DNA from: Burkholderiaceae bacterium
GTDB lineage: Bacteria; Pseudomonadota; Gammaproteobacteria; Burkholderiales; Burkholderiaceae_F
Reading direction: 5' to 3'
DNA length: 53,783 bases
Assembly (NCBI GenBank): GCA_017646335.1
Contig: JAGCMT010000052.1
Coordinates: 1 to 53,783 of the forward strand
Both the position numbers and the translations under genes were made by a program. Below, in pieces: positions 1 to 51,050 of this stretch. How positions within the stretch are numbered: the first letter of the stretch is position 1; each line of letters opens with the position of its first letter. The notes under the pieces were generated by a model. That model saw only the letters and a list, made by a program, of their open reading frames with translations, was not told the origin of the DNA and ran no database searches.

Positions 1-1620
1 CCCATCGATGAAACGTTCATCAGTTACGGCTACACGCTCGACATCACCGATTCGCTCGCCTTCAAACGCGACCCGAACGCCATTTTGCGAGGCTTCTATA
101 TTCTCGAGAGCACGCCCACGTTAAAGCGCTTGGGTTCACGTTTTTTGCGTGCATTGTGGCATGCTCGCAAATTAGTCAATGCCCAATACCGTGAAGATCC
201 GAAGAATAAAGCGACCTTCATGGAAATCATCAAGATGAAGCATGGCGTCAGCCACGCGCTCTTGGACTTGAACCAATGGGGCATCTTGGGGCTTTTCATC
301 CCCGCTTTCCAACACATCGTGGGCCAAATGCAGCATGACCTTTTCCATGCTTACACGGTCGATCAACACACGATGCGTGTCGTGCGAAATATCCGCTACT
401 TTACCCGTAGTGAATACGCGCACGAATACCCGCTTTGTACCCGCTTGATGCAAACGTTGCCGAAGAATTGGCGTTTGGTTTTAGCGGCGCTTTTCCATGA
501 TATCGGTAAGGGTCGAGGCGGAAACCACGAAGAAGTGGGGGCAGAAATCGTTCGCGAATACTGCGAACATTTCGGTCTGTCGCACAAAGAAACCGATTTT
601 GTGACGTTTTTGGTGCGAGAGCATTTGACGATGAGCTTGGTGGCTCAAAAGAAGGACATCTCCGACCCGGAAGTCATCAAGGAATTTGCTCAACGCGTCG
701 GCACGGAAAAGCGACTCAATGCCCTTTATTTGCTCACGGTCTGTGACATTCGCGCCACGAGCCCCAAGGTTTGGAATAACTGGAAAGCCCAACTCTTGGA
801 AGAACTCTATCGCCAAACGCTCCCCTTGGTTCAAGATAAAGAAATGCTTGAAACCGACACGGACGACTGGATGCAAGAGCGTCAAAATGAAGCCAAAGAA
901 AAGATTCTTGCCGCCGGCGTCAGTGAACGAGCTTGCCAAAAATTCTGGCGACGACTGTCTTTGGTCCACTTCTTGCGTAATTCTTCCGATGCCATTGCCT
1001 GGCAGACGATCGAATTACACAATCATATGAACGAAGACGGCGCGGTCGTTCGTGCACGACCGTTGAAAAAAGAAGGCGGTTTGGAAGTTTTGGTTTATGT
1101 GCCCGACCAACCGTTACTTTTTGCTCGCATCTTGGCGTTCTTACAAAAGAAACGCTTTAGCGTGATGGATGCTCGCATCTACACGACACAGGACGAAAAG
1201 GCACTCAATACCTTTATCGTGAGCGATAACGGTGATCGCGATCCGGAAGCGCTGATTCAAGAAGTCGAAGAAGGTTTAACGGATTGGCTCAATAACCCGC
1301 AACCGTTACCGAAAACCCGACCGACACGCTTGTCTCGTCGCTCTCGTATGTTCCCGATTCGACCGCTCGTGCGAATCGTGGCCGACGATTCCGGTCAACG
1401 CTACATTCTTTCCGTCACCTGTACGGACCGCATCGGTTTGCTCTACGATATCGCTCAAGTTCTCAATCGTTACGGCATCAATTTGCAAACGGCCAAGATT
1501 ATGACGATGGGCGAGCGCGTGGAAGACGTTTTCTTGATCGACGGTCCGATTCTCGGTGATATCACGCAAACCGTCGAATTGGAAAAGGACCTCTTAGAGG
1601 TCCTTACACCGACCGTTTGA
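1..1620 (+). CDS. glnD: [Protein-PII] uridylyltransferase / uridylyl-removing enzyme, C-terminal part
   Basis: GlnD adds and removes UMP on PII according to glutamine level, so it is the nitrogen sensor of the cell. The reading frame is open from the first base of the window, so the 5' end with the nucleotidyltransferase domain lies outside; 539 residues are visible. An HD domain for UMP removal is clear (a conserved His near visible residue 117, then the FHDIGKG motif near 165-171). Two ACT domains that bind glutamine follow, at about 1075-1220 and 1370-1550. Its substrate, PII, is encoded here by the separate glnB at 42.1 kb. The gene converges on the mtiP operon with only four bases between the stop codons, and a terminator-like hairpin for the other strand lies inside its 3' end. 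Identification is firm. Confidence 0.95.
   Translation, partial: PIDETFISYGYTLDITDSLAFKRDPNAILRGFYILESTPTLKRLGSRFLRALWHARKLVNAQYREDPKNKATFMEIIKMKHGVSHALLDLNQWGILGLFIPAFQHIVGQMQHDLFHAYTVDQHTMRVVRNIRYFTRSEYAHEYPLCTRLMQTLPKNWRLVLAALFHDIGKGRGGNHEEVGAEIVREYCEHFGLSHKETDFVTFLVREHLTMSLVAQKKDISDPEVIKEFAQRVGTEKRLNALYLLTVCDIRATSPKVWNNWKAQLLEELYRQTLPLVQDKEMLETDTDDWMQERQNEAKEKILAAGVSERACQKFWRRLSLVHFLRNSSDAIAWQTIELHNHMNEDGAVVRARPLKKEGGLEVLVYVPDQPLLFARILAFLQKKRFSVMDARIYTTQDEKALNTFIVSDNGDRDPEALIQEVEEGLTDWLNNPQPLPKTRPTRLSRRSRMFPIRPLVRIVADDSGQRYILSVTCTDRIGLLYDIAQVLNRYGINLQTAKIMTMGERVEDVFLIDGPILGDITQTVELEKDLLEVLTPTV
1583..1605 (-). terminator. Intrinsic terminator of the smc-zipA-ligA-mtiP operon, nested inside the 3' end of glnD
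   Basis: A perfect 9-bp stem (1585-1593 with 1597-1605) has a 3-base loop. Read on the minus strand it is followed by TTTT. It begins 20 bases after the mtiP stop, but it lies inside the last codons of glnD on the other strand. Function is inferred from shape only. Confidence 0.6.
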
Positions 1621-9343: not shown

Positions 9344-9658
9344 GGGGGCATCCTTTGGTAAAAATAGTCTAAAAGGCTTGAAAAATCAGCCAAAAATTAA
9401 CTGATGAATTTTAGCAGAAAGCGACTTTCTCTCTGCGTTTTCTCGACAATTTCGAAGCGTTTGTTCACATAAAAACAATCGTCTATGAGCATTGCCTTAG
9501 CCGAAAACAAAAAAATCATTTTTCTCGAGCATTGTTAGGCAAAAATGCTTAAGGGATAAATTTTGTCGGCAAATTCCCCGACCTATAATTTTTGAAAAAT
9601 TTTTTACTCAAACGACCTATCAGTGTCCCTGTCGATCATCTGAGAATTGGAGACTAAG
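9344..9658. promoter_or_regulatory. Divergent smc / carA intergenic region with carA promoter
   Basis: This 315-base A+T-rich stretch carries no gene. A perfect -10 box (TATAAT, 9584-9589) faces carA; the -35 is poor (TTGTCG at 9563-9568 is 15 bases away). A short inverted repeat GTCGG/CCGAC overlaps this promoter and could be an operator. The 8-mer GAGCATTG occurs twice about 45 bases apart further upstream (near 9487 and 9530). Facing smc, TTGGCT-16-TAGACT on the minus strand near 9365-9395 is a weak candidate. The carA ribosome-binding site GGAGA is at 9649-9653. Confidence 0.5.
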
Positions 9659-10153
9659 TTGAGTTCGATCATTCAAGACAAACGCCCGCATGCCGTCTTG
9701 GTTTTAGCCGACGGAACGACCTTCTTCGGTCACGGCATTGGAGAAATCGGTTCGGTCACCACACCGATCGTTTACAACACCGATGTCATGGGGTATCAGG
9801 AAACGTTGACAAACATCGCCCATAGCGGACAAATCGTTGCCTTTGCTTATCCGCACATCGGCAATGTCGGTGTCAACAATGACGATAACACGAGCGATCT
9901 TGTGCAAGCCGCCGGCATCGTGATTCGTACGGAAACCCCCGTCGTCAGTAACTTCCGAGCCACTGACAGCTTGAACGCTTTTTTGAAAAATGCGGGCGTG
10001 GTCGGCATCGCCGACATCGACACCCGCCAATTGGTTCGTCATTTGCGAGACCATGGTCCGATGGTCGCTACGATCCTCTCCACCGAAGGCGAGCTGACTG
10101 AAGAAGCACTTCAGAAAGCCCACATGGCCACGCAAGTGATCGACCTTTCGTAA
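9659..10153 (+). CDS. carA: Carbamoyl-phosphate synthase small subunit, N-terminal domain only (no glutaminase domain)
   Basis: Normal CarA, about 380 residues, has an N-terminal domain that binds CarB and a C-terminal class I glutamine amidotransferase domain that feeds ammonia to CarB. Here only the first domain exists. 164 residues match E. coli CarA residues 1 to about 153, including DGTTFFGHGIGEIG, NTDVMGYQETLTN, YPHIGNVG and IADIDTRQLVRHLRD. The frame then stops, and carB starts 21 bases later. No Cys-His-Glu amidotransferase sequence is found in any frame of the gap, so this is a clean deletion and not a frameshift. The start is TTG at 9659, five bases after GGAGA; another TTG twelve bases upstream overlaps that site and is less likely. 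Inference: the enzyme works with free ammonia, or a glutaminase is supplied from elsewhere. Confidence 0.9.
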   Translation: MSSIIQDKRPHAVLVLADGTTFFGHGIGEIGSVTTPIVYNTDVMGYQETLTNIAHSGQIVAFAYPHIGNVGVNNDDNTSDLVQAAGIVIRTETPVVSNFRATDSLNAFLKNAGVVGIADIDTRQLVRHLRDHGPMVATILSTEGELTEEALQKAHMATQVIDLS

Positions 10154-10174
10154 CCCTTTGATAGTGAAAGCATC

Positions 10175-13100
10175 ATGCCTAAACGCACAGATATTCAATC
10201 CGTCATGATCCTCGGTGCCGGTCCGATCGTTATCGGTCAGGCTTGTGAATTCGACTACTCCGGCGCTCAAGCTTGTAAAGCATTACGTGAAGAGGGTTAC
10301 CGCGTCATCTTGGTCAACTCCAACCCGGCCACGATCATGACCGACCCGGATACGGCCGATGTCACCTACATTGAGCCCTTAAACAGCAAAGTGGTCGAGC
10401 GCATCATCGATAAAGAACGCCCCGATGCCATTTTGCCGACTATGGGCGGCCAAACCGCCTTGAATTTGGCTCTTGAATTGGAAAATTCGGGCATCTTGGC
10501 CCAATACGGCGTCGAATTGATCGGTGCCTCGCCCGATGCCATCGACAAAGCGGAAGATCGTCAACGCTTCAAAGAAGCCATGGCTAAAATCGGCCTTGAG
10601 AATCCCCGCTCCGGCATTGCCTATAACATGGATGAAGCCTTGGCGCTTCAAAAAGAAATGGGCTTCCCGACAGTGATCCGCCCCTCCTTCACCTTGGGCG
10701 GCACGGGCGGTGGCGTTGCTTTCAACATGGAAGAATTCATCGAGATTTGCAATCGCGGTCTGATTCTTTCGCCCACTCATGAACTCTTGATCGAAGAATC
10801 GCTTCTCGGTTGGAAAGAAATCGAGATGGAAGTGATTCGTGACAAGAACGATCACTGCATCATTATCTGTTCGATCGAAAACTTGGATCCGATGGGTATC
10901 CATACGGGCGACTCGATTACCGTCGCGCCGGCACAAACCTTGACGGCACGCGAATACGAAAAAGTTCGCGACGCAACCTTTGCCGTGATCCGAGAAATCG
11001 GTGTAGCGGCGGGCGGCAGTAACGTGCAATTTGCCATCAATCCGGAAAACGGTCGCTTGGTTGTCATCGAAATGAATCCCCGCGTGTCACGCTCTTCGGC
11101 ATTGGCTTCCAAAGCAACGGGCTTTCCGATCGCCAAAATTTCGACCAAATTGGCCGTCGGCTACACTCTCGACGAATTGCAAAACGACATGACGGGTGGC
11201 GCCCTGTCGGCCGCCGTCGAACCCACGGTCGACTACGTCGTCACCAAGGTGCCTCGCTTTGCCTTTGAAAAATTCCCGCAAGCCAACGATCGTTTAACGA
11301 CACAAATGAAGTCCGTCGGCGAAGTTATGGCCATCGGTTCGACTTTCCAAGAATCGTTACAAAAAGCCCTTCGTGGTTTGGAAACCGGCAAAGACGGTTT
11401 AACTCCGATTTCCAACGATCTCGAGAAAATCATTCGTGAGATCTCCGAACCCGGTGCCGAACGCCTCTTTTATTTGGCCGATGCGATGCGTCAGGGCATG
11501 AGCGATCAGGAATTGAGTGAAATCACCGCGATCGATCCGTGGTTCCTTGCCCAAATCCGTGAATTGGTTGAAATCGAAAAGCGTGTTCAAGATAGTGACT
11601 TTGAAACCATCACCGAAGAGGAAATGCTTTTCCTGAAAAAGAAAGGCTTCTCGGATAAGCGCTTGGCTACCCTTCTTGGCGTACAAGAAGAGGCCGTGCG
11701 CGGTCTTCGTCAAGAGATGGATATTCGCCCGGTCTACAAGCGCGTCGACACCTGTGGCGGTCGTCACGAAACCCCGCAAGCATACTTTTATTCGACGTAT
11801 CAAAACGAATGCGAAGCCCGTCCGACGGATAAAAAGAAAATCGTTGTGCTGGGCGGCGGTCCGAACCGAATCGGTCAAGGGATCGAATTCGATTACTGCT
11901 GTGTGCATGCAGCGATGGCGATGCGTGAAGACGGTTACGAAACGATCATGATCAACTGTAACCCTGAAACAGTCTCGACCGATTACGACACGTCCGATCG
12001 ACTCTATTTCGAACCCGTCACGCTCGAAGACGTTTTGGAAATTTGCCACATTGAAAAACCCGAAGGCGTCATCGTTCAATACGGCGGTCAAACACCGTTG
12101 AAGATTTGTCGCGCTTTGGAAGCGGCCGGCATCCCGATCGTGGGCACGACGCCCGATGCGATCGACTGCGCTGAAGACCGTGAACGCTTCCAAAAACTCA
12201 TCAATGATTTGGGCCTTCGTCAACCGCCCAATCGTACGGCTCGCACTGAAGAAGATGCTCTTCGTTTGGCCGAAGAAATCGGCTATCCGCTCGTGGTTCG
12301 TCCGAGCTACGTTTTGGGTGGTCGTGCAATGGACATCGTGCATAACGCCAAGGAACTTCAACGCTACATGCATGAAGCCATTGTCGTCAGTAACGATAGC
12401 CCCGTCCTTCTGGATCGGTTCTTAGACGATGCAATCGAAATGGACGTCGACGCCATTTGTGATGGCACCGAGGTTCAAATCGGTGGGCTCATGCAACACA
12501 TTGAAGCCGCCGGCGTTCACTCCGGTGACTCCGCTTGTTCGTTGCCCCCGTACAGTCTTCGTCAGGACATTTTGGATGAAGTCAAACGCCAAACGGCACT
12601 CATGGCCAAAGCGTTGGGCGTCGTGGGCTTGATGAACGTGCAATTTGCCATTCAAGGCGCCGTCACGGAGGAGCCCGTGATCTATGTCTTGGAAGTCAAC
12701 CCGCGCGCAAGCCGCACGGTCCCCTTCGTCTCCAAGGCTACGGGGGTTCCGTTAGCAAAGATTGCCGCTCGTTGCATGGTGGGTCAAACCCTTGCTGACC
12801 AAGAAGTCAACGTGGAAGTTCAACCCAAACAAATCTGCGTCAAGGAAGCTGTCTTCCCCTTTACGAAGTTCTTGGGCGTCGACCCGGTCTTAGGGCCGGA
12901 AATGCGCTCCACGGGCGAAGTGATGGGCGTGGGACGCACCTTTGGTGAAGCACTCTTTAAGAGCCAAATGGCGGCAGGCGATACGTTACCCGAAACCGGC
13001 ACGGTCTTCTTCTCGGTTCGTGATGAAGATAAGCTCAAGGCCATTGTGGCGGCTGCCAAGTTCGAGCAATCGGGCTACAAGATCGTCGCCACGCGCGGCA

Positions 13101-13396
13101 CGGCAGCGGCTTTTGCCGCAGCGGGCATCGAATGCAAACGCGTCAAGAAAGTCAGTGACGGTCGCCCCAATGTGATCGATATGATCAAAAATCAAGAGAT
13201 CCAATTGGTCGTGACAACAAGTAACGAAGTACGCGGAGAAATGAATGATGCGCGTGACATTCGTATGGCGGCTTTGGCCAGTCGCGTCACTTACCATACG
13301 ACGATTGCCGGCGGTTGTGCCGCCGTGGAAGGCATCCGTCATATGAAAGACGCACAAGTCTACGCCTTGCAAGACATGCACAAAGATGCTTGCTAA
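10175..13396 (+). CDS. carB: Carbamoyl-phosphate synthase large subunit
   Basis: CarB makes carbamoyl phosphate for arginine and pyrimidine synthesis from bicarbonate, ammonia and two ATP. All 1073 residues look intact. There are two homologous ATP-grasp halves, each opening with a [13 protein letters not shown] nucleotide-binding motif (near residue 15 and near 560), and a C-terminal MGS-like allosteric domain (about 935-1073). No key residue is obviously missing. It lies 21 bases after the truncated carA and is clearly in the same transcript. The large subunit of this family can use ammonia directly, so it may remain active without a glutaminase partner. A strong terminator follows. The greA gene that often follows carB in relatives is absent. 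Confidence 0.97.
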
Positions 13397-35335: not shown

Positions 35336-36703
<1,368 letters not shown>

Positions 36704-42085: not shown

Positions 42086-42436
<351 letters not shown>

Positions 42437-43837
42437 TTAGAAAAAATCATTATTCGTTACTTGGCTCAACGGCTTGGTAGTCAACTTGACCCCTTGAGCC
42501 GCTTGTTCGCGCTTAAATTGAGCGCCTTTGACTAATTTCCAAATACGAGCAGCCAACTCCGCGCCATGGCGCTTCTTTAACTTATTGAGCGAGAAACCTC
42601 GTTCGATCATGTTCTTTAAAACGGCATCCAATTGGGGATACGGCGGCAACGAATCTTCGTCCTTTTGGTCTTCACGTAGTTCGGCCGTGGGCGCCTTGGT
42701 CAAAATATTTTTCGGAATAACGCGACGCAAATAGTCATCGTCTTCGCAAAGCTTATAAAGTTCGGACTTGTAAATATCGGATAAGAGCGCCAAGCCGCCG
42801 ACCATGTCTCCGTAAAGCGTGCAATATCCTACGGCACACTCACTCTTATTGCCGGTGGTGAGCACCAACGAGCCGTCGACATTACTCAAACTCATCAACA
42901 GCAAACCGCGTGCGCGAGCTTGGAGATTTTCCGCCATCAACGCCGTCGAACGCCCCTCGGGCAAATGCGGCGTCACCGAATCAAACGCAGTCTTCACGGT
43001 CGGCATGATGTCGATGGCTTGAAGCTTCAAACCTAAATTGGTTGCCAAATCTTCCGCATCTTGCCAACTTTCTTCACTAGTGAAGCGACTCGGCAACACG
43101 TAAGCATGGACATTGTCCGCCCCAACGACATCGGCAGCAATGGCAGCAACCACCGCGCTATCCAAACCACCCGACAACCCTAACGTGACGGCCTTAAAGC
43201 CATAACGTTTAAGGTAACACTTCAATGCCACTTTCAGCGCTTGAACCTTTACCGTCGCTTCATCGCAACGACAGACATGAGCCATGGCGATATCGAATGC
43301 GGAGTCCGGTGCCAAATAATTGGCCTTCAATTTCCCGTTTTGTACGACACGGCATTGACCGGCAAATACGCGGCCGTCATGGAACGTTTGGCTGTCAACG
43401 ATCACATAATGGCTCGCACTCCAAGCGGCAAACGGCTCAGCCACGTCCGCCGTACGGAACACCAAATCGTGCGTAGTGCCCAACACATCTTTGAGCACCA
43501 CCAAGCCACCTACCGTTTCAAACATCGGCAACACATCGGCAACACCGTCATGGATCAAATGCACGCCAAGCCCACGCGAAACCATGGCGGGCAACACGAG
43601 TTTGACACCGGTCTTTTTCGTGGCTTTGGCAATCTTGGCAATCGACGCCTCGATCACTTCCTTGGTATCGGCCGAAAGGGATTCAAAGGTATGTACCGCT
43701 CCCGTCATCGCGTGCAAGGCAAATACCAAGGTGTCACCCGGAGAGCGACGCTTCGATTTTGCACAGTCAATGATGTGCTTGGTATTGGCTTCAATATCAC
43801 CCCAAGTAAAGGGATAGGCGTAAACAATGGTGGCCAT
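42437..43837 (-). CDS. nadE: NAD+ synthetase with degenerate, shortened glutaminase domain
   Basis: NadE amidates deamido-NAD. The synthetase domain (from about residue 195) looks intact: SGGLDS (222-227), TTGNKSE, CTLYGD, and LREDQKDEDSLPPY. Glutamine-using relatives are about 540 residues and carry a nitrilase-fold domain with a Glu-Lys-Cys triad. This product has 466 residues. Its first 190 still align with both ends of that domain (WGDIEANT at the start; HYVIVDSQTFHDGRVFAGQ matching YVNxVGGQDELVFDGGS at 143-161). However, the catalytic Glu in the FPELALTGY motif is replaced (FALHAMTGA, Leu41), and about 80 residues with the Lys and the ICED Cys are gone. Inference: ammonia-dependent enzyme with a remnant structural domain. 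Confidence 0.9.
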   Translation of the reverse strand: MATIVYAYPFTWGDIEANTKHIIDCAKSKRRSPGDTLVFALHAMTGAVHTFESLSADTKEVIEASIAKIAKATKKTGVKLVLPAMVSRGLGVHLIHDGVADVLPMFETVGGLVVLKDVLGTTHDLVFRTADVAEPFAAWSASHYVIVDSQTFHDGRVFAGQCRVVQNGKLKANYLAPDSAFDIAMAHVCRCDEATVKVQALKVALKCYLKRYGFKAVTLGLSGGLDSAVVAAIAADVVGADNVHAYVLPSRFTSEESWQDAEDLATNLGLKLQAIDIMPTVKTAFDSVTPHLPEGRSTALMAENLQARARGLLLMSLSNVDGSLVLTTGNKSECAVGYCTLYGDMVGGLALLSDIYKSELYKLCEDDDYLRRVIPKNILTKAPTAELREDQKDEDSLPPYPQLDAVLKNMIERGFSLNKLKKRHGAELAARIWKLVKGAQFKREQAAQGVKLTTKPLSQVTNNDFF

Positions 43838-49537: not shown

Positions 49538-49577
49538 GAAATGATTATTTAACCTCTTTTTTATGAGAGATACTCCA

Positions 49578-51050
49578 ATGAACACTCCTGTTACCGAAAA
49601 TCTCGATCCTTTGGCTCAGAAGAGCAAGGCTTGGTCCGGTCGTTTCTCCGAACCGGTCGCTGATTTCGTGCTCCGCTACACGGCTAGCGTCGACTTCGAC
49701 AAGCGCATGGCCATGCAAGACATCACGGGTTCCGTTGCCCACGCTACGATGCTCAACAAGTCCGGCGTCCTGAGCGATCAAGACTTGGCTGACATCAAGC
49801 GCGGTATGGCTCAAATCGTCGAAGAAATCCGTTCCGGCGTGTTCCAATGGAAGCTCGAACTCGAAGACGTGCACTTGAACATCGAAGCTCGCTTGACGCA
49901 ATTGGTCGGCGATGCCGGTAAGCGTTTGCACACGGGCCGTTCCCGTAATGACCAAGTCTGCACGGACATGCGCCTTTACATGCGTGACGAAATCGACGTC
50001 ATCATCGAACTCTTGAGCAACTTGCAAGAAGTTTTGGTTGCTAAGGCCGGTGAAGAAGCCGACACGATCATGCCGGGCTTTACGCACATGCAAGTCGCAC
50101 AACCGGTGACGCTCGGTCACCACTTGCTCGCTTACGTCGAAATGTTCGAACGTGACCGCGCTCGCTTGATCGACATCCGCCGTCGCGTGAACGTGAGCCC
50201 GTTGGGTTCTGCCGCTTTGGCCGGTACGACGTACCCGATCCAACGCGAACTCTCCGCTCAATTGCTCGGTTTCGAAGGCGTTACGCAAAACTCCTTGGAC
50301 GCCGTTAGCGATCGTGACTTCTGCATCGAGTTCTGCTCTGCCGCTTCCTTGATCATGGTCCACATCTCTCGCTTGTCCGAAGAGTTGATTTATTGGATGT
50401 GCCAACGCTTCAAGTTCATGATGTTGCCCGACCGCTTCACGACGGGTTCCTCCATCATGCCGCAAAAGAAGAATCCGGACGTGGCCGAAACGGCTCGCGG
50501 TAAGGCCGGTCGCGTTTGCGGTGACTTGATCAGCTTGGTCGTTTTGATGAAGGGCTTGCCCTTGGCTTACAACAAGGATAGCCAAGAAGACAAGGAACCG
50601 GTCTTTGACGCTATTGACACGGTGAAGGATACGTTGCGCGGCTTCGTTGACATGATGCCGGGTATGGAACCGAATCGTGCCGAAATGTTGAAGGCTGCTC
50701 AAGCCGGCTTCCCGACCGCTACGGACTTGGCCGACTACTTGACGAAGAAGGGTCTCCCCTTCCGTGAATCTCACGACGTCGTCGGTAGCGTGGTCCGCCT
50801 CGCTAGCGAACGTGACTGCGACTTGGCAGAACTTCCGCTCGAAGAATTGCGCAGCTTCACGAAGTTGATCGAAGAAGACGTTTACGAAAAGGCTTTGAAG
50901 CTTGAATCTTGCGTCGCCGCTCGTGACCACGTCGGTGGTACGGCTCCGAACCAAGTCCGCTTCCAAGTCGCTCGTTGGAACGACATCTTCGAAGCTCGTC
51001 ACGCTGAGCCGAAGCCCTATAACGCATTGAATGCTTTGTTGGGTCTCTAA
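49578..51050 (+). CDS. argH: Argininosuccinate lyase
   Basis: ArgH splits argininosuccinate to arginine and fumarate. The 490-residue product has the family signature [12 protein letters not shown], the TGRSRNDQV stretch and [16 protein letters not shown]. The ATG at 49578 is preferred over the ATG five codons upstream because GAGAGA then sits seven bases before it, as in the M20 peptidase leader, which has the same TACTCCAATG context. Lys is mostly AAG, and Gly and Ala are mostly GGT and GCT, as in the yjiHG cassette, suggesting high expression. The N-terminus has about 12 extra residues. Confidence 0.97.

Follow-up and report, generated by a model that had tools for sequence, protein, structure and literature searches.

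Known Carbamoyl-Phosphate Synthases

Carbamoyl-phosphate synthase (CPS) is a textbook case of the channelling of ammonia from a glutaminase. In the E. coli enzyme the small subunit contacts the carboxyphosphate and oligomerization domains (PMC6245113), and CPS of the E. coli type can use ammonia (PMC3017870). Human CPS1 uses ammonia only; a possible external path is described for it, which follows the interface between its CarA-like and CarB-like parts and bypasses the dead glutaminase site (PMC4655335). The forms named in PMC6022934 are glutaminase-fused CPS, two-subunit CPS, the split CPS of Aquifex, and a carbamate-kinase-like enzyme, and none of those named has a small subunit without a glutaminase. 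Table 1 of PMC3376133 counts synthetases that lack a glutaminase, which were recorded for nadE in 44% of 886 genomes, for guaA in 0 of 730, and for carAB in 0 of 600. No earlier description of a bacterial CPS with a glutaminase-less small subunit was found in the open-licence literature. A previous claim about the locus described below, that no bacterial CPS of this form has been described, agrees with that table and with this literature. As far as these searches show, ammonia-dependent CPS is known, and what is new is the architecture of the small subunit (here called CarA′) and its bacterial setting.

The window (the whole stretch of DNA that was analyzed, 53,783 nucleotides) is contig 29 of the draft genome G000 (1.48 Mb in 113 contigs, 82.8% complete, 2% contamination). 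With bacterial CarAB of the E. coli type (TIGR01368 and TIGR01369) its locus shares the CarA N-terminal domain, a full CarB, and the adjacency of the two genes. Identity to CarAB of the same family is 54–57% for the CarA N-terminal domain (best relatives) and about 80% for CarB. It differs from these enzymes in that CarA′ is without the whole class I glutaminase domain and scores 146 with TIGR01368 against a cut-off of 307. Vertebrate mitochondrial CPS I has a CarA-like N-terminal domain as well; it has no glutaminase activity and is expected to take external ammonia (PMC4655335), which may also be so for CarA′–CarB, since by sequence the glutaminase is absent. CPS I, however, still carries its glutaminase domain in an inactive state, combines both parts in a single chain, and depends on N-acetylglutamate. 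The bacterial locus described here has lost the domain and encodes two separate chains. CarA′–CarB is probably an ammonia-dependent CPS, and one of at least four amidotransferases that appear to have turned from glutamine to ammonia.

A Small Subunit Gene Confined to the N-Terminal Domain

The carA′ gene (9659..10153, + strand) encodes 164 amino acids corresponding to the N-terminal domain of the CPS small subunit alone. The open frame around it spans 9647–10153 (+), and the likely start is a TTG at 9659 with GGAG six bases before it. PF00988 covers CarA′ from end to end (1–126 of 126, 139.6 bits). TIGR01368 covers it at positions 1–148 of 361 only, and the 146.3 bits obtained fall below the cut-off of 307.35. 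In the alignment with E. coli CarA, residues 5–148 of that protein match residues 12–155 of CarA′, so that CarA′ stops close to where the glutaminase domain would begin. The class I glutaminase domain with its Cys-His-Glu triad is absent from CarA′, as the frame stops before it. Measured against the glutamine-hydrolyzing CarA family (TIGR01368), the locus therefore has the N-terminal domain and an intact partner CarB and lacks both the glutaminase domain and the whole-protein score.

A spacer of 21 bases (10154..10174, +) follows, and then carB (10175..13396, +), which encodes a full-length large subunit of 1073 amino acids (NF003671, 1–1057 of 1058, 1702.6 bits). The two genes form an operon-like pair, and their G+C content at the three codon positions is similar (0.57, 0.40, and 0.63 in carA′; 0.59, 0.40, and 0.60 in carB). 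A frameshift, or a second piece of CarA downstream, was considered and ruled out, since the spacer leads directly into full-length carB. The earlier note had claimed that CarA is without its whole glutaminase domain and that no remnant of it lies between the genes. Both statements stand: the frame of 164 residues holds the N-terminal, CarB-contacting domain, carB begins 21 bases on, and a gap of 21 bases is too short for a glutaminase remnant. The extent given for the feature, 9659..10174, is to be corrected at its end, since coding stops at 10153 and positions 10154–10174 are the spacer.

CarA and CarB Among Relatives

A first search of relatives found PF00988 in 50 of 61 genomes, and among genomes of the family it is present in 50 of 67, G000 included. 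Apart from G000, 49 family genomes have a match, and none of them has a short CarA comparable to CarA′, which answers the earlier proposal that CarA of related genomes be compared. Three apparent candidates were rejected: a frame of 277 amino acids in G016 has a run of N inside it, one of 300 amino acids in G061 stops near a contig end (as inferred from coordinates), and one of 209 amino acids in G019 is a partial second hit. In a survey of the phylum with the CarA model, 377 of 397 genomes scored over the cut-off, 17 below it (including G000), and three were without a match. No CarA′ was found in viral contigs.

The genus is represented by nine genomes (G000–G008), of which only G000 and G005 have carB. 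Over residues 383–1073 the two CarB proteins are 94% identical. The G005 contig ends within carB at residue 383, and CarA′ is thus seen in one draft assembly. Both carA and carB are absent from the other seven genomes (G001–G004 and G006–G008), which show only a 22–23% match of about 255 residues. The genus apart from G000 and G005 has lost this step of the pathway.

Eight relatives were inspected for the arrangement of the two genes. In six of them (L129, L132, L137, L138, L140, and L143) a gene of about 200 codons separates carA and carB, and in the other two the genes are adjacent. The intervening gene of L129, the one tested, encodes a SIS-domain protein and is by its looks presumably gmhA. 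Because both the glutaminase half of carA and the intervening gene are gone from G000, a single deletion of about 1.3 kb may account for both losses.

A full-length CarA with a dead-looking glutaminase was seen in Ruminococcaceae bacterium UBA1404 (L111:4980–6083), where the motif GICLGHQ reads GIGLGHQ (Cys to Gly), as in an enzyme like CPS I. It resembles CarA′ in being a bacterial CarA with an apparently dead glutaminase, and differs from it in that the domain is kept; the two are not close (47% identity in the N-terminal domain). CarA of L021 did not fit the catalytic-motif pattern that was used. CarA of Subdoligranulum was rejected as a dead enzyme, as GICLGHQ is kept.

Sequence Change in CarA′ and CarB

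CarA′ and CarB were compared with a set of 21 Pseudomonadota, made up of 20 of the 49 family genomes and E. coli. Identity to this set is 42–57% for the N-terminal domain of CarA′ and 66–81% for CarB. CarA′ is about 0.13 less alike than the CarB identity predicts (residual −0.132; residual standard deviation 0.039). Averaged by genome, the residuals of all the others fall in the range −0.045 to +0.036. At 13 of the 46 positions that are invariant in the 21 Pseudomonadota CarA′ differs, and 33 are kept; in a leave-one-out control, each of the 21 CarA proteins departs at 0 to 3 invariant positions. CarB of G000 departs at 20 of 496 invariant positions, compared with 0 to 11 in the family genomes (n = 20) and 30 of 526 in E. 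coli.

Near-invariant CarA positions were scored against 23 relatives (the 21 together with L111 and L112). CarA′ keeps 36 of 45 such columns, one of which is an alignment artefact at the tail. The nine altered positions are, in E. coli CarA, E29, F32, T37, D45, P46, S47, Y48, T56, and E71. Five of the 11 near-invariant positions within E. coli 37–48 are changed, against four of 34 elsewhere (one-sided Fisher p 0.03, with the region picked post hoc). In E. coli CarA, we take Ser47 to contact bound glutamine and Thr37 to line the tunnel. An origin of CarA′ outside the family was rejected, as its best matches are CarA proteins of the same family (57% for L140 and 56% for L138), against 47% and 45% for the two matches from a wider contig scan. 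To judge from these comparisons, CarA′ is a native protein that has been altered where the glutaminase was.

That the retained domain has taken on another role, for instance in regulating or assembling CarB, instead of shaping an ammonia path would be in keeping with two observations: it is the part that lies next to CarB, and its sequence is changing fast. The concentration of changes at the former glutaminase contact (the post hoc region 37–48) speaks against such a role, which we regard as improbable.

CarB keeps its gate and catalytic residues: it retains C232, A251, and A314, which in E. coli numbering we take to form the ammonia gate, together with ten of 11 further positions that were examined. 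The remaining one, N1015, is replaced by T at a position that is variable among relatives. The human equivalents of C232, A251, and A314 are named as the gate in which the ammonia tunnel ends (PMC4655335). The changed CarB positions include two clusters, 323–352 and 533–540, which may mark the surface that faces the small subunit. Six CarB changes can be compared in G005 (533, 535, 536, 540, 599, and 659), and all six are common to both genomes; at 263 invariant positions, a single additional change is private to G005 CarB. Because G005 has all six comparable changes, the change in CarA would seem to be older than the split of the two species.

These data also bear on whether the true carA is full length and a deletion or chimera arose during metagenome assembly. 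CarA′ comes from a single assembly, a draft of 113 contigs with 2% contamination, and the contig of G005, which ends in carB, cannot confirm carA. However, the stop codon falls at the domain boundary and is followed by a spacer of 21 bases, and the glutaminase-facing positions of CarA′ are changed throughout, which a fresh artefact would not bring about. In addition, G005 has the same CarB changes, and GuaA is without its glutaminase domain in both genomes (see below). An assembly artefact is therefore highly unlikely.

Glutaminases in the Rest of the Genome

PF00988 has a single match in draft genome G000, and the full CarA model has two (best E 1.8e-42). PF00117 also has a single match (E up to 1), which is HisH (TIGR01855, 217 bits); its gene lies in the his operon between hisB, identified by eye, and hisA. 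No PF00117 gene other than hisH was found in G000 or in G005 (about 93% complete). The earlier note had asked for a second carA and for a separate class I glutaminase: there is no second carA in the G000 draft (82.8% complete, 113 contigs), and the only PF00117 glutaminase in it is HisH.

Moreover, GuaA, PurF, and NadE of this lineage appear from their sequences to have lost glutaminase function too, and this strengthens the ammonia reading of CarA′–CarB. GuaA of G000 (L086:802–1782) and of G005 (L085:802–1782) has 326 amino acids and no glutaminase domain, and both begin at the same ATG behind AGGAG. In six other members of the genus the GuaA frames have 523–541 amino acids, and PF00958 was not found in G007. 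The shortened protein, GuaA′, is 52% identical to native GuaA of two genus members, 80–82% to proteins of gut Clostridia, and 72–73% to GuaA of Parabacteroides and Bacteroides. Its closest relatives, from gut Clostridia and Bacteroidales (L122, L123, L125, L126, and L154), have 429–435 amino acids and a degenerate glutaminase without the nucleophile segment; in the three that were scanned, PF00117 matches only at positions 1–76 of 190. These relatives keep the remnant that GuaA′ of G000 and G005 has shed. Because identity to the proteins of gut Clostridia is so much higher than to native GuaA of the genus, GuaA′ is best read as having arrived by horizontal transfer and then shed the remnant.

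The sole PurF found besides GlmS in G000 (L121:1495–2919) and G005 (L120) is diverged and lies in a purE-purC-purF cluster. Its N-terminus is MGGFFG in place of the usual MCGI, so that the nucleophile Cys is Gly. The same Gly is found in relatives from Peptoclostridium (55%) and from Bacteroides finegoldii and Parabacteroides (47%), and the Cys is kept in E. coli PurF and in native PurF of G008. PurF proteins of the Gly type would be expected to make phosphoribosylamine from ammonia. No counterpart of this PurF′ was found in viral contigs, and a weak PF13522 match at G000:C101, considered as a decayed PurF, proved to be TolB.

The window itself holds nadE (42437..43837, − strand), which encodes a glutamine-dependent type of NAD synthetase in which the nitrilase part is shortened (466 amino acids; PF02540 at 198–446; NF010588 at 263–528 of 546). 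Its N-terminal part has 197 amino acids, and no CN_hydrolase match was found in G000 NadE up to E = 10. In an alignment of the G000 protein with three relatives, the nitrilase triad is gone (Glu to Leu, Lys lost, Cys to Leu). The nitrilase domain with Glu-Lys-Cys that characterizes two-domain glutamine-dependent NAD synthetases is thus absent. Like NH3-dependent NAD synthetases, this NadE would carry out amidation without a working glutaminase, and it differs from them in being a decayed protein of the two-domain glutamine type, not of the short type.

A general loss of glutaminases was rejected, since HisH, PurL, and GlmS of G000 retain their catalytic residues, as do HisH and PurL of G005; GlmS of G005 was seen as a match. 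PyrG, or CTP synthase (PF06418), was considered as a further converted enzyme and dropped, as none was found in G000, G005, or G008 (three of the nine genomes of the genus, including one that is 98% complete).

Archaeal GMP synthases that are split, with a separate glutaminase subunit, are known. With this precedent (subunit B entries 2dpl and 6jp9), and with 83% of the G000 genome at hand, ammonia could be fed to CarA′–CarB in trans, either by a free glutaminase subunit encoded in the missing part or by HisH. No such PF00117 gene is present in G000 or in the more complete G005, however, and HisH sits in its usual operon. Conservation has been lost at the CarA positions close to the glutaminase, and the class II and nitrilase losses lie beyond replacement by one class I subunit. 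Supply in trans is thus very improbable.

A Putative Ammonia-Dependent Carbamoyl-Phosphate Synthase

The earlier note had proposed an ammonia-dependent CPS that keeps only the CarB-binding domain of its small subunit. This is held to be the best reading, as the checks of the genome and of relatives were favourable and GuaA, PurF, and NadE show apparent parallel losses. In the proposed mechanism, a deletion at the domain boundary removed the glutaminase half of CarA. The N-terminal domain would have been retained for its packing against CarB and its part in a protected path that leads external ammonia to the carboxyphosphate site. CarB would take ammonia from the medium, with CarA′ serving as a wall of the entry path and as the partner of CarB. 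The deletion would be part of a wider shift in the lineage, in which the domain of GuaA went, the Cys of PurF became Gly, and the triad of NadE was lost, with HisH, PurL, and GlmS spared. From the sequences we infer the use of ammonia, the binding of CarA′ to CarB, the ammonia path, and an ammonia-rich habitat, such as the gut, as the cause.

Several findings stand against this reading. Decay, too, could account for the fast evolution of CarA′, and neither carA nor carB is present in the seven remaining genomes of the genus. Glutamine is still used by HisH, PurL, and GlmS, and the missing 17% of the G000 genome could hide a glutaminase. In addition, cells that possess glutamine synthetase are said to contain little free ammonia (PMC3376133).

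In its broadest form the ammonia reading would extend to the nitrogen metabolism of the lineage, and we consider this wider proposal somewhat better supported than not. It holds that, in a host-associated lineage of Burkholderiales, free ammonia has replaced glutamine in much of the amide-nitrogen chemistry. At least four enzymes with three unrelated glutaminase folds would be involved (class I in CarA and GuaA, class II in PurF, and nitrilase in NadE). The change would have come about by native decay in CarA and probably NadE, and by uptake of ammonia-type genes from gut Clostridia or Bacteroidales in the case of GuaA and PurF. On this view CarA′–CarB would be a minimal CPS of a new, ammonia-dependent kind, in which the small subunit has no catalytic function and serves to scaffold the ammonia path.

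If so, CarA′–CarB offers a direct test of the role of the neighbouring domain, of the entry of external ammonia, and of the need for a long tunnel. The apparent losses in GuaA, PurF, and NadE suggest that the rule of glutamine as donor can be dropped when ammonia is plentiful. Several proteins of this kind are annotated as glutamine-hydrolyzing in public records, among them the second guaA of Parabacteroides, and metabolic models of gut bacteria may for this reason assign the wrong nitrogen donor. The degenerate-glutaminase guaA genes annotated in this way are those of Parabacteroides distasonis (L126:560–3439) and Bacteroides finegoldii (L154); in P. distasonis the degenerate gene lies directly behind a normal guaA.

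Selection and Pathway Context

Between G000 and G005, dN/dS is 0.029 for guaA′, 0.059 for purF′, and 0.044 for carB (691 codons), and 0.022–0.063 for six other genes that were compared. As their values of 0.03–0.06 are like those of the six other genes, guaA′, purF′, and carB are working genes under purifying selection.

The genes that would act on the product of CarA′–CarB are also in place. Carbamoyl phosphate would pass to ornithine carbamoyltransferase and then, by way of ArgG and ArgH, to arginine. The gene for ornithine carbamoyltransferase adjoins guaA′ in both G000 and G005, and the window contains argG (argininosuccinate synthase; 35336..36673, −; NF003779, 867 bits) and argH (argininosuccinate lyase; 49563..51050, +; TIGR00838, 607.5 bits). 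The arginine genes downstream of carbamoyl phosphate are intact.

These results bear on the view that CarA′ is a functionless relic, with CarB using ammonia alone or with the pathway being lost as it was elsewhere in the genus. Both genes are missing from all seven other genus members, and 13 of 46 positions that are invariant elsewhere have changed in CarA′, as might be seen in a relic. On the other hand, CarA′ is complete over the 126 positions of PF00988, its frame and start site are intact, and it retains the other 33 invariant positions; carB is under strong purifying selection, and the downstream arginine genes are undamaged. A relic is accordingly unlikely, and CarA′ as a working part of an ammonia-dependent CPS is the reading we prefer.

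Two genes of the PII system were also found in the window. A glnB-type PII regulator (42086..42424, −; PF00543) adjoins nadE; it scores 194.1 bits with PRK10858, just below the cut-off of 202, and 184.8 with PRK10665, over the cut-off of 181. The C-terminal part of glnD, encoding PII uridylyltransferase (85..1620, +; NF002837 at 352–855 of 857), is cut by the start of the contig.

Across nine gene pairs, dS between G000 and G005 varies about tenfold, from 0.16 in guaA′, 0.18 in purC, and 0.21 in purL to 1.1 in carB and 1.6 in hisH. Because it is so much lower in guaA′, purC, and purL than in carB and hisH, the two lineages would appear to have exchanged purine genes recently.
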